A stretch of 30,470 nucleotides of DNA from a virus, in the IMG/VR virus record IMGVR_UViG_3300030108_002411, positions 1 through 30,470 of that record, one strand, 5' to 3'. The notes beneath the pieces are model-generated. The model was not told the origin of the DNA. It did no database searches and saw only the letters and a program-made list of their open reading frames with translations. A program made the translations under genes and the position numbers. Positions within the stretch are counted from its first letter, which is position 1. The number at the start of each line of letters is the position of its first letter. Of this stretch, positions 3,856-13,640 are shown piece after piece.

Positions 3856-4053
3856 TTATGGCGATGTCATTCTTCTTGAAGTGTCAAGAATACCCCTAAA
3901 GTATTCAGCATCTTTTGCCAACATTTTTTTTTCTGCAACCATAACATCTAATTTATCCCACATAAGTTGTAAATTCAATTTAATATTTAACAATCTATAA
4001 CCCATGGCGTCAATTCTGTCTTGAAGTTCTTCTTCGTAGTGTTCATTTTCCAT
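3856..4053 (-). CDS. Small coiled-coil protein of unknown function
   Basis: A 65-aa protein, almost entirely alpha-helical by composition, with heptad-like spacing of Leu/Ile/Met (LLNIKLNLQLMWDKLDVM). No cysteine pair, signal or membrane segment is visible. It lies in the early leftward block, overlaps the preceding gene by 11 nt and stops 6 nt before the NinG gene. I do not recognise it. Confidence 0.6.
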   Translation of the reverse strand: MENEHYEEELQDRIDAMGYRLLNIKLNLQLMWDKLDVMVAEKKMLAKDAEYFRGILDTSRRMTSP

Positions 4054-4579: not shown

Positions 4580-5398
4580 CTATATAAGTATTTTAAGTTT
4601 TTGATCACATTTATGGCAATGTTGATATAACTCTTTTGTTTCTGATTTAACTTGTACTTCAGAACATTGTTCGCAAGAATAAATATATGTTTTTGGTTTT
4701 TCTGGTGTGTTAACTTTGTTGTTTCCAAAATCCCTTCTTAACCAATTTTTAAAACCTGCAAAAGCACTTGCATATTGTTTTCCATGTGCTTTACAATAGT
4801 CTAAAAATTGTTCGTACTCCTCATCAACATTTTTATGTTTGAACTTACAATCTGGTTTTTTTTGTTCTTTTTTAATTTCATCTAATCTTTCTTCACTAAT
4901 ATTATTATTCTTTTTACTTTTACTTTTATTATTACTATTACTATAAGACTTAATTAACTCTTTACTATCCCTATACTTAATAGATAAGTAAGTCTTCCAC
5001 ATCTCTTGGCAACCATTTTTATAAATTAAAGCAGTTATACTTTTATGAATTATGCTTTCACCTAGTTGGTGTGGTGGTTTGTCAAGCCCTTGTTGGAAAA
5101 TAATTTTACTTGGAATCCAAAGTCTATTTGCTTCTTCTTTCCAAATAATTCTTCCTCCAAAAGATGAAGTAAATGTTTCTTTTGTGAAATGTTCTTCAGT
5201 TGGCAAATTCAGTAAAAAATTAGCAAGTGGAACATTAATTTCTAAAAAACCTGCATGATCACTTCTAGTAAAAATATATATATAAACAAGTTTTTCTTTT
5301 ACTTGTAATTGTTGAAACCATTCTTGTTCCCAAATTTTATCATCAATAAATATTTTACTCATGTCTATTGCCATTTCTTGTCGTTTGCTTCTTCCCAT
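4580..5398 (-). CDS. Probable replication initiator-like protein with C-terminal Cys4 motif
   Basis: A 272-aa protein in three parts. Residues 10-125 look like a winged-helix region of the kind found in phage replication proteins (KLVYIYIFTRSDHAGFLEIN, VPLANFLLNL, then IIWKEEANRLWIPSKIIFQQ). Residues 130-180 are a Ser/Asn/Lys-rich linker. Residues 190-225 contain FLDYCKAHGKQYASAFAGFKNWLRRDF, a pattern typical of the C-terminal part of DnaD/O-like helicase loaders. The end carries a four-cysteine zinc-binding candidate, C242xxC245 and C261xxC264. It sits in the early operon beside the SSB-like gene. With no polymerase in the genome it is the best candidate to recruit host replication proteins. 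Starts at Met9 (5374) or Met13 (5362) are also possible. Confidence 0.66.
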   Translation of the reverse strand: MGRSKRQEMAIDMSKIFIDDKIWEQEWFQQLQVKEKLVYIYIFTRSDHAGFLEINVPLANFLLNLPTEEHFTKETFTSSFGGRIIWKEEANRLWIPSKIIFQQGLDKPPHQLGESIIHKSITALIYKNGCQEMWKTYLSIKYRDSKELIKSYSNSNNKSKSKKNNNISEERLDEIKKEQKKPDCKFKHKNVDEEYEQFLDYCKAHGKQYASAFAGFKNWLRRDFGNNKVNTPEKPKTYIYSCEQCSEVQVKSETKELYQHCHKCDQKLKILI

Positions 5399-7877: not shown

Positions 7878-8222
7878 ATGACTTGGAAACAAATATATGA
7901 AAAGAATATGGAAAAATATGGTAATCAAATTACTTGGGCTAAAGTTGATGAAAAATTAGGTGATATAACTTATCATATTGGTGATAAAGAACCATCTTTG
8001 AGAATGTTAAAAGATTTGGTGGGTGATGATATAAAAATCATTGACTTTGAACCAGATTGCATAGATGGTTCACAAATAGTAGTTAATAAAAATATGAGTT
8101 CAATCCCTAAACTACTTAATAAATACGCTAGTGAAGAAGTAAGTAGAAATATAGTTGGAAATGCAGTTATTCTTTATGACCAAGCAACCCTTGACTATGA
8201 AACATATGATTGGTTATTCTAA
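7878..8222 (+). CDS. Rightward hypothetical protein, 114 aa
   Basis: I choose the ATG at 7878 because AAGAAAGAGG lies about eight bases upstream and the product then starts cleanly with MTWKQIYEKNMEKYGNQI; the longer in-frame reading upstream is Asn/Thr-rich, translates the leader DNA and is not credible. The protein is acidic and mixed alpha/beta, with GDITYHIGDKEPSLRMLKDL, then DDIKIIDFEPDCIDGSQIVV, and ends ATLDYETYDWLF. One cysteine and no known motif. It is one of only three plus-strand genes in the genome, and its stop codon lies in the first bases of the tRNA-like element. Function unknown. Confidence 0.68.
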   Translation: MTWKQIYEKNMEKYGNQITWAKVDEKLGDITYHIGDKEPSLRMLKDLVGDDIKIIDFEPDCIDGSQIVVNKNMSSIPKLLNKYASEEVSRNIVGNAVILYDQATLDYETYDWLF

Positions 8223-8267
8223 GTATATATGGTATAAAGGGAGGTTCGATTCCTCCCTATACTTCCA
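8221..8267 (+). ncRNA. tRNA-like minihelix (acceptor + T-arm + CCA, no anticodon arm)
   Basis: Bases 8239-8257 form a perfect T-arm: 6-bp stem GGGAGG/CCTCCC closing the loop TTCGATT, which fits the tRNA consensus T54-T55-C56-R57-A58-N-Y flanked by G53 and C61. Directly after it, TATACT (8258-8263) pairs with AGTATA (8222-8227), then comes T8264 (discriminator position) and CCA (8265-8267). Six plus six pairs give the 12-bp acceptor/T stack of a tRNA; A8221 could also pair with T8264 like the extra N-1:N73 pair of tRNA-His. The 11-nt linker TATGGTATAAA contains the GG that in tRNA D-loops contacts the T-loop. There is no D-stem and no anticodon arm. It lies between two plus-strand genes. It may be a processing signal, a tRNA mimic, or the remnant of a tRNA or attP site. 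Confidence 0.6.
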
Positions 8268-8288
8268 ACAAAAAAAAAGAGGTACAAA

Positions 8289-8732
8289 ATGAATACATTT
8301 ACATTTCAAAAATTATTCAAAAACAGTATTGGTAGTCGTTATTTAACTTTAGAAGAAAAAGTTGCTTTTGTAAGAGTTAATTTTAAAATTCCACCAAAAC
8401 CAATGTTTGGTTTGGATCAAAAAGAAAGAAAAATTGCGATACAAGATTTGATGGATTTGTGGTTGGATTACTTAACTCAAGAAATGTATGTATGTACTGC
8501 AATTGCAACAGATCATAGTGAACTTGGTGATGATTTTACTTTAGAATTTACAATCAAAAGGGCATTAGATGATACATATCACCACATGCAATTGTCTAAA
8601 GGTGATGGTGATCTACCTTACGTTTCTGTTGTAAGATCAAAAAAAAATAATGAACAAGAAATGAACTCGCAACAAATATTACAAAACCGTATAAAATCTG
8701 TTGAAGACATTGAAGTAAAATTATTAAATTAA
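8289..8732 (+). CDS. Rightward hypothetical protein, 147 aa
   Basis: Starts at ATG 8289 with AAGAGG 5-8 bases upstream, 21 bp after the CCA of the tRNA-like element. The product is mixed alpha/beta: a basic N-terminus, an LTLEEKVAFVRVNFKIPPKP segment, a helix IAIQDLMDLWLDYLTQEM, beta strands (CTAIATDHSEL, FTLEFTIKRAL) and a helical Gln-rich C-terminus. No cysteine pair, membrane segment or catalytic motif. It is transcribed with the 114-aa gene against all other genes, and is followed by two hairpins. I do not recognise it. Confidence 0.68.
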   Translation: MNTFTFQKLFKNSIGSRYLTLEEKVAFVRVNFKIPPKPMFGLDQKERKIAIQDLMDLWLDYLTQEMYVCTAIATDHSELGDDFTLEFTIKRALDDTYHHMQLSKGDGDLPYVSVVRSKKNNEQEMNSQQILQNRIKSVEDIEVKLLN

Positions 8733-8739
8733 TGTTGTC

Positions 8740-8790
8740 TTGCCCTCTGCTTTATATTGTCTTTTTCTGTTTGTTGTTGGTGGAGGGCAA
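8740..8790. other. Inverted repeat with long loop after the rightward genes
   Basis: TTGCCCTC (8740-8747) and GAGGGCAA (8783-8790) are a perfect 8-bp inverted repeat around a 35-nt T/G-rich loop, starting 8 nt after the stop of the 147-aa gene. No T-run follows on either strand, so it is not a standard terminator. The remainder of the 8733-8881 gap holds only the terminator listed separately. Confidence 0.45.
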
Positions 8791-12141: not shown

Positions 12142-13640
12142 TAACCCAAAGCCCTTGCATTATTAAGTGCAGGAACAAGTGTATTTTTGACGTATGATTG
12201 ACTTACTAAGCCACCTTTTATATTCACGTTTACACTTGGTGTCTGTCCAGTAAATCCTCTTAAAAGAAAACCTCCAAAACCTGCACCACCTTGTGCTGCC
12301 ATTAATGAACCTCCAGTAAATAAATTTAACATTGCAAATGTCGCTGCCTTTGAAACCAATTCTGCTGCAATAGACTTTAAAGATGAAGTAATTGCATCAC
12401 CCATATTTTGTCCGTGTATCGCTGCTTGTGCAATTGCACCTCCAAATCTTTCAACACCCATGATTGCCAATTGTTGATTATCAGAAAGTAGTTTTATTGA
12501 CGAATCATTACTTTCAACAACATCATCAAGTTTTTTAAAAGATTCAACACCTGCATCAATTGTTGTTCTCATCACATCAAAAGATTCGATAGCAATCAAT
12601 TCTCTGTTTGTTAATTCTTCGATTCCCTCAGATGTGTCCTCCATTGCTGATTCCAACATCATTTGGTTAATAATTTCTTTTTTACCTATTTCGTTAGCAT
12701 CTATATTTGCTTGATGTAATTGTTTTTTTAATCCTATTTGTTTTTCTTCACCAAATGAGTTTCTTATCGATGCTTTAGTATTACCATCTATTGCTTTTGT
12801 TAATCTTATTTGTTCTTCTGTTAAACCCTCAAAATCTTTTTCTGGTTTATCCTTTAAAAAACCTGTAACTGAATTAATAAAATTTGTAAATAGTGTTGTT
12901 GCACTTTCAACTGCAGGTTTAAATTTTTCACCTAAAGCATTTGATAAATTTGTTATTGCTACGTCAAATTGTTCTTGTTTTTCATTTAAACCAAGTTGTT
13001 CTTCACCTAATTCTTTCACAGCAATTTTTGCTTGTCGCATTGCCTCATTGATAAACGCTCTTTTACGTTCTTCCTCTGTTAATTGACTGACTGTTTTATC
13101 TAATGAATTAGCAAGATTTTCTTGTGCAGAAGTTGCATCTACCATAATTCCTAAATTATCAAGAATCATTTTTGACTGTCTTCCTAAACCAGTTGTTAAA
13201 GATTGCACAGCAAATTGAGTATCAACTCCCATTGCTTTACCTAATCTTTGGGCTGTGTCAAAGAGTTGTGCCATTTGGTTGTCTGAATCTGCTATACCTA
13301 ACAACAAAGCATTGTTTGCATTAGTTAATAACTCGGTGTCAGTAACTGTTCCGTTTGTTGCCTCTCTAAATTTTTCTAATGAATCTGCTCCAAAACCAAC
13401 ATTTTTACCAAGGTTTAACATTGCACTTTCTAAATCTTCAACTCTTTGTGCAGATTGTGCTGATGCTGATATTGCATTGAACCCAGAAACCAAACCTTTT
13501 GCAGCGAAAAGAGCACCACCTACTTTGATTGCAGTTTTTCCAAGTGCGACTAATTTATTATCAACCTTGGAAACATCTTGTTCGGCTTTTTTTGCTCCTT
13601 TAATTCTAAAAATTAAATTTAATATTTTATCTAGTGCCAT
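12141..13640 (-). CDS. Tail tape measure protein
   Basis: A 499-aa protein with the typical tape-measure makeup: a basic N-terminal helix, long Ala/Glu/Lys-rich helices with coiled-coil character (residues 15-400), and a C-terminal hydrophobic stretch (SKAATFAMLNLFTGGSLMAAQGGAGFGGFLLRG, broken over residues ~430-470). It follows the frameshifted tail chaperone pair, overlapping its end by 14 nt, and precedes the hub gene, the standard siphophage order. It sets tail length and is probably ejected into the host envelope; 499 residues would imply a short tail, about 70-75 nm by the usual 0.15 nm per residue rule. The GGAGAAA ribosome site before ATG 13640 supports the start. Confidence 0.9.
   Translation of the reverse strand: MALDKILNLIFRIKGAKKAEQDVSKVDNKLVALGKTAIKVGGALFAAKGLVSGFNAISASAQSAQRVEDLESAMLNLGKNVGFGADSLEKFREATNGTVTDTELLTNANNALLLGIADSDNQMAQLFDTAQRLGKAMGVDTQFAVQSLTTGLGRQSKMILDNLGIMVDATSAQENLANSLDKTVSQLTEEERKRAFINEAMRQAKIAVKELGEEQLGLNEKQEQFDVAITNLSNALGEKFKPAVESATTLFTNFINSVTGFLKDKPEKDFEGLTEEQIRLTKAIDGNTKASIRNSFGEEKQIGLKKQLHQANIDANEIGKKEIINQMMLESAMEDTSEGIEELTNRELIAIESFDVMRTTIDAGVESFKKLDDVVESNDSSIKLLSDNQQLAIMGVERFGGAIAQAAIHGQNMGDAITSSLKSIAAELVSKAATFAMLNLFTGGSLMAAQGGAGFGGFLLRGFTGQTPSVNVNIKGGLVSQSYVKNTLVPALNNARALG

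Follow-up and report, generated by a model that had tools for sequence, protein, structure and literature searches.

We found that the short element at positions 8221-8267 of the window (the whole 30,470-nt stretch of viral DNA analyzed here) belongs to a widespread family of phage RNAs, and is no one-off of the phage that carries it. The members of this family share a covarying tRNA-like structure, lie at stop codons, recur in arrays, and carry, depending on the host, a C at the position equivalent to C74 of tRNA. From these features we infer the cleavage, the enzyme and the effect on expression: with a probability of roughly 0.6, the element imitates tRNA in cis and serves as a host RNase P-type processing site at gene junctions of the phage mRNA. 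We hold it nearly as probable that the family constitutes an undescribed, widespread class of phage RNA, in which anticodon-less mimics allow RNase P to punctuate transcripts gene by gene, and in which the 3' base is tuned to the type of RNase P in the host (C74 where the host is not a cyanobacterium, a base other than C in cyanophages).

Architecture of the window element

The element lies on the plus strand between two plus-strand genes, neither of whose products has a PHROG or Pfam match: an upstream gene encoding 114 aa (7878..8222) and a downstream gene encoding 147 aa (8289..8732). The TAA stop codon of the former (8220-8222) shares bases with the first bases of the element, in agreement with the initial annotation, in which the element lies between two genes and begins with the first gene's stop codon. 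All of the parts that were assigned to 8221-8267 at that time are present in the sequence. The 5' acceptor strand, AAGTATA (8221-8227), occupies columns that covary in relatives. It is followed by TA-TGG-TA (8228-8234), a mini D-arm of two base pairs around a YGG loop that is the counterpart of G18G19 in tRNA. A connector, TAAA (8235-8238), leads from the mini D-arm to the T-arm and replaces the anticodon arm and the variable loop. The T-arm (GGGAGG/TTCGATT/CCTCCC, 8239-8257) combines a covarying stem with a T-loop (8245-8251) that conforms to TTCRANY. The 3' acceptor strand, recognized by sequence and covariation, consists of TATACT and T8264, the equivalent of N73 (8258-8264), and the element ends in CCA (8265-8267), with C8265 as the equivalent of C74. 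The AAGAGG at 8277..8282 is the putative Shine-Dalgarno-like sequence of the downstream gene.

The 12-bp acceptor/T stack begins at A8222, and A8221-T8264 forms an optional 13th pair. The stack, the TTCGATT loop and the end described earlier as either unpaired or closed by an A-1:T73 pair are thus all seen, and the 13th pair is likewise optional in relatives. Two other features called for revision. The 11 nt between acceptor and T-arm (TATGGTATAAA, 8228-8238) had been regarded as a plain linker with a GG; the GG stands, but the linker is not plain, since it holds the covarying mini D-arm. Further, the CCA end is real in the window but does not extend to the family, where mainly C74 is conserved and a full CCA is exceptional.

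The window element scores 57 bits with a covariance model whose training set includes it, and ARAGORN reports 0 genes in the window. When it is folded alone, a rival pairing that draws on the linker (GGUAU/AUACU) has an energy of -15.0 kcal/mol vs -13.0 kcal/mol for the tRNA-like layout, both computed without tertiary D/T contacts. The predicted fold of relatives from L028, L053 and Indlulamithi is the tRNA-like layout. A search of viral contigs found no relatives of the downstream protein. On the 3' side of its gene, a long imperfect inverted repeat, GCCCTCTGC...GGTGGAGGGC (8737-8790), is kept in the relative L420 and may mark the end of convergent operons.

Family, covariation and genomic placement

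IMG/VR was searched with the exact T-arm string GGGAGGTTCGATTCCTCCC alone, the flanks being disregarded, and 85 distinct loci were recovered. A complementary acceptor flank of at least 5 bp is present in 61 of them, whereas swapping flanks among the same 85 loci yielded 6.4 on average and 15 at most (500 trials). A descriptor comprising the acceptor, the GG linker and the T-arm gave 202 unique matches in 2.8 Mb vs 1 in one shuffle. About 190 distinct elements, spread over many unrelated phages, have in common the 12-bp (optionally 13-bp) acceptor/T stack, the TTCRANY T-loop and the GG linker. The sequences of the acceptor stems bear no resemblance to one another, with complementarity retained. 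A first covariance model was built from 21 descriptor matches of one geometry (A2) and a second, widened model from 150 (A4). In the alignment, both partners have changed in 12 of the 13 pairs. Among 143 sequences, 96.1% of cells are paired, and compensatory cells number 621 vs 165 in shuffles; the outermost, 13th pair is formed in only 79 of 140. The initial annotation had named compensatory changes in the acceptor stem as a check on the fold, and they are found across the relatives. The length of the stack, left free up to 20 bp, is 12 or 13 bp in 134 of 205 elements; the acceptor/T stack of tRNA has twelve base pairs. The base at +1 is a purine in 151 of 187 elements. Because loci were picked by their T-arm strings, the T-loop and T-stem statistics are biased toward the query strings, and the covariance-model E-values are rough.

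The pairing within the linker is a separate matter. Throughout the family this segment is a mini D-arm, with YGG or YGGT enclosed by two to three covarying pairs; variants found elsewhere include AA-TGG-TT, CA-TGG-TG, GA-TGG-TC, TT-TGG-AA and CT-TGG-AG. At least 2 bp surround the YGG(T) in 135 of 176 relatives, whereas 1000 swaps gave 40 on average and never more than 55. The selection of elements required the GG only and no D-arm pairing, and the covariation of the mini D-arm is therefore independent support for a tRNA-like elbow. The spacer from mini D-arm to T-arm measures 2-5 nt in most relatives. An extra hairpin occurs at the place of the anticodon arm in L327 (gap 49/50) and in L424 (gaps 3858-3979, 4933-5134 and 8028-8210).

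The elements are closely tied to gene junctions. The upstream stop codon falls within -15 to +15 nt of +1 in 104 of 148 cases; the elements begin at this stop (median -7 nt), and the next start codon lies about 40 nt further on. In 38 of 118 cases, the window among them, the 5' acceptor strand shares bases with the stop codon. In Mycobacterium phage Indlulamithi, 12 elements lie on one strand within 7.4 kb, nearly all of them 4-12 nt past an annotated stop and ~31-37 nt ahead of the next annotated start. Send513 likewise has 12, and Fowlmouth and MrMiyagi have 10 each; in these four genomes, same-strand arrays occupy nearly every long intergenic gap. A 42-kb contig (L028) carries five elements at successive gene junctions. 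Single copies are also found: one full-length element in each of the Cluster A phages Conspiracy and SWU2, one in T7-like cyanophages in the gap that follows psbA or a small ORF and precedes the major capsid gene (S-TIP37, P-GSP1, where only the first covariance model detected it, and many contigs), and one ahead of the capsid gene of Syn5. Taken with the structure and the covariation, this placement supports the original description of a minimal tRNA-like RNA that lacks an anticodon arm and sits between genes. A second hairpin (stem of at least 5 bp) lies between the element and the Shine-Dalgarno sequence in 90 of 184 cases vs ~30 in shuffles.

Covariance-model searches found no element in T4, T7, N4, phi80, Syn9, LUZ7, HTVC010P or PhAPEC7, and a tight version of the pattern occurs in 1 of 84,980 species genomes. 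With stricter filters, only the seed genome among 291 Clostridia genomes had a match, the other 290 having none. Among relatives of the window phage, represented mostly by fragments, 1 of 36 records has the full element. The nearest relative has neither the element nor the upstream gene, and retains the downstream gene only as a remnant, which suggests that in the window lineage the element comes or goes with its genes.

Several other observations were made in the course of these searches. In L327, L424 and L425, a second small hairpin stands between almost every element in the gaps and a Shine-Dalgarno sequence of the AGAGGATGG type. Glutamine-II riboswitches lie near the element in the T7-like cyanophages L005, L124 and L127; in S-TIP37 (L124), psbA is followed by the riboswitch, then by a small ORF, the tRNA mimic and the capsid gene. 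Seven elements in L159 (1672-2847) and five in L185 (9192-10278) are spaced ~100-540 nt apart, have a T-A-T-T 3' flank, and are without C74. A Clostridia MAG contig (L128, JAAUYS010000080.1), probably a phage or prophage, has two elements among small phage-like ORFs. In L016, L062, L081, L090 and L107, a conserved TGACGAGGT precedes the same T-arm, with a 3' flank of the (A/G)AGCTGC type; this group does not match the acceptor layout and is possibly another RNA. A Gamaleyavirus match (L122 and L123; 91% over 35 nt) was taken as chance or decay: its T-loop is ATTCGTT, it has only a poor acceptor stem, and PhAPEC7 gave no match with model R2.

Proposed processing by RNase P and competing explanations

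We propose that the acceptor stem, mini D-arm and T-arm would together adopt the elbow shape of the upper half of a tRNA, with the anticodon arm absent. Host RNase P, the most likely enzyme, would gauge the 12-bp acceptor/T stack and cut at its 5' edge. In the window, the predicted cut falls at 8221/8222 or 8220/8221 and would separate the messages of the two genes, the downstream mRNA then beginning with the tRNA-like structure. Alternatively, RNase Z or an exonuclease might trim the 3' side, in which case the downstream mRNA would begin with its own leader. The second leader hairpin ahead of the Shine-Dalgarno sequence in many phages would shield the processed 5' end, and is a candidate 5' stabilizer of processed mRNA. 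In this way, the phage could set the ends and the stability of single messages inside long polycistronic transcripts. Cleavage of the mRNA between the two genes was among the roles first suggested for the element, and the junction placement, the covariation and the arrays make it probable.

The features that have been kept are those read by shape, namely the 12-bp stack, the T-loop and the GG, and the acceptor sequences are free to differ even among the copies of a single phage; this combination points to shape-measuring enzymes and away from aminoacylation. Charging with an amino acid, which the initial annotation had listed among its options, is accordingly disfavored. The 12-bp acceptor/T helix and the T-loop, both features of RNase P substrates, are present. 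The base at -1 is mostly A, in part owing to the stop codon and to the A-1:U73 pair; RNase P favors U at this position.

The 3' end of the element offers a further clue. In bacterial RNase P, the RCCA of the substrate pairs with a GGU loop, whereas cyanobacterial RNase P has no GGU and is inhibited by CCA (PMC4264200). Outside the cyanopodophages, 105 of 156 elements carry C74, vs 0 of 19 within them, a contrast between groups of related phages and not a tally of many independent events. It matches the loss of GGU and the inhibition by CCA in the cyanobacterial enzyme. Eleven elements of two contigs, L159 and L185, also have no C74. C75 is found in 6 of the 156 non-cyanopodophage elements, and the window has the full CCA; because C75 is rarely conserved, the 3' contact to RNase P would be only partial.

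The overlap of the stop codon with the 5' acceptor strand poses a difficulty for RNase P cleavage, because a cut at +1 would in these cases yield a non-stop upstream message. This cost could be avoided if the cut came after translation, if the 3' side were processed instead, or if the terminating ribosome governed folding. The overlap (38 of 118) is harmless, and the start of the element right at the stop codon is explained, if the fold is instead a 3'-end protector, i.e. if RNase Z or exonucleases stop downstream of it and leave it as the nuclease-resistant, CCA-extendable 3' end of the upstream mRNA, much like the tRNA-like ends of plant-virus RNAs. A full CCA blocks RNase Z, and its rarity among the elements is also in keeping with this idea. 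Protection of the 3' end would, however, leave unexplained both the host-dependent C74 and the excess of hairpins in the downstream leader (90 of 184 vs ~30), and we consider it unlikely.

Stop codons that are close by or overlapped would also suit an unprocessed structural barrier or translational spacer that insulates or couples the translation of neighboring genes. Any hairpin would be enough for this purpose, and neither TTCRANY, nor the YGG mini D-arm, nor an exact 12-bp stack would be demanded; we thus regard this role as improbable. About equally improbable is the notion of a decoy, an RNA that would engage or titrate the tRNA enzymes of the host, or defenses directed at tRNA, and that, having no anticodon, would escape anticodon nucleases. 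It would account for the many copies per phage and for the retention of only those parts that shape-sensing tRNA enzymes read. A decoy needs neither strict placement at gene junctions nor the single copy seen in many phages, though, and it sits poorly with the closest relative of the window phage, where the element and the upstream gene are missing and the downstream gene is a remnant.

Another proposal, that the element is an attP-type site copied from the 3' end of a host tRNA, had been raised in the initial annotation together with the remark that no integrase was seen. Neither a tyrosine nor a serine recombinase (PF00589, PF00239) was found in the window record, which may itself be incomplete. 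An att site or a decaying tRNA gene would explain the likeness to the 3' half of tRNA; Fowlmouth has an annotated serine integrase, and the extra hairpin at the anticodon-arm place in some mycobacteriophage elements points to tRNA ancestry (the L327 and L424 elements may represent steps on the way from tRNA to the minimal form). Still, the acceptor strands covary in more than 100 cases of unrelated sequence, a complementarity that decay would not preserve, and the arrays of 10-12, the stop-codon placement and the lack of a recombinase in the window render this origin very improbable. Least credible of all are intrinsic terminators that resemble T-arms by chance: GC-rich hairpins past stop codons would fit, and one copy (L409; relative G046, 12557-12604) is followed by seven T and might also be a terminator, but a T-rich tail, the U-run that a terminator has directly 3' of its stem, accompanies only 4 of 187 elements, arrays within operons would halt their own downstream genes, and no terminator-like site was found in the region.

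Relation to known RNAs and processing systems

No element reached any gathering score in Rfam 15, and ARAGORN did not recognize those of L327, L162, L028 and others. Compared with tRNA (RF00005), the elements have the 12-bp stack and a TTCRANY loop closed by a G-C pair, but not the four arms, as the anticodon arm is missing. Infernal returned weak matches of the tmRNA model (RF00023) to three elements, the best being 25.6 bits for a 40-nt element against a gathering score of 47. The tRNA-like domain of tmRNA, which is processed by RNase P, does resemble them: it has an acceptor stem, a stemless or short D-loop with GG, a TTCRANY T-arm and no ordinary anticodon arm. Unlike tmRNA, the elements have no mRNA-like domain or tag ORF, are ~47 nt long, lie within polycistronic mRNA, and occur in many copies with unrelated acceptors. 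A search of the open-access full-text literature found no description of a phage tRNA-like intergenic element.

Related model substrates are the minihelices (AT1 and relatives), in which an acceptor stem, T-stem and T-loop, the same parts as in the elements, make up a minimal and efficient RNase P substrate (PMC11143913). These are laboratory constructs, whereas the elements are natural and conserved, with an added, covarying mini D-arm. Host RNase P is also known to cut phage RNAs, namely the M3 RNA of phi80, the C4 antisense RNA of P1/P7 and the gene 32 mRNA of T4 (PMC11143913). Each is a single case, none is a repeated gene-junction element, and the covariance model was negative in phi80 and T4. 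If our reading is correct, RNase P would have a broad role in phage mRNA processing, one that has so far rested on such scattered cases.

Regular processing sites between the genes of polycistronic mRNAs are familiar from T7, in the RNase III sites R0.3-R18.5; these have another fold and employ another enzyme. tRNA-like folds outside true tRNAs are recognized by RNase P or RNase Z in plant-virus tRNA-like structures and in the mascRNA of MALAT1/MEN-beta, but these lie at RNA 3' ends and differ in architecture, and they do not form arrays at the gene junctions of DNA phages. Another parallel, should the proposal hold, is tRNA punctuation in mitochondria, where tRNA folds lie between the genes of polycistronic transcripts and tRNA-processing enzymes cut there. 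The mitochondrial punctuators are functional tRNAs; the phage elements cannot decode.

The elements explain intergenic gaps left blank in the annotated genomes of cultured mycobacteriophages and marine cyanophages. Indlulamithi or Send513 in M. smegmatis, with 12 elements per genome, offers a set of predicted exact RNA ends. The hairpin retained at the place of the anticodon arm in some elements bears on how this arm may be lost from tRNA. If the proposed role is true, DNA phages make natural, recurring use of the minimal top half of tRNA as a gene-junction signal. Each of the ingredients was known separately: RNA folds that resemble tRNA, phage RNAs cut by RNase P, and punctuation by tRNAs. 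A natural anticodon-less mimic repeated at gene junctions in phages of several host phyla was found neither in Rfam 15 nor in open-access full text, and comes close to a new class of RNA.
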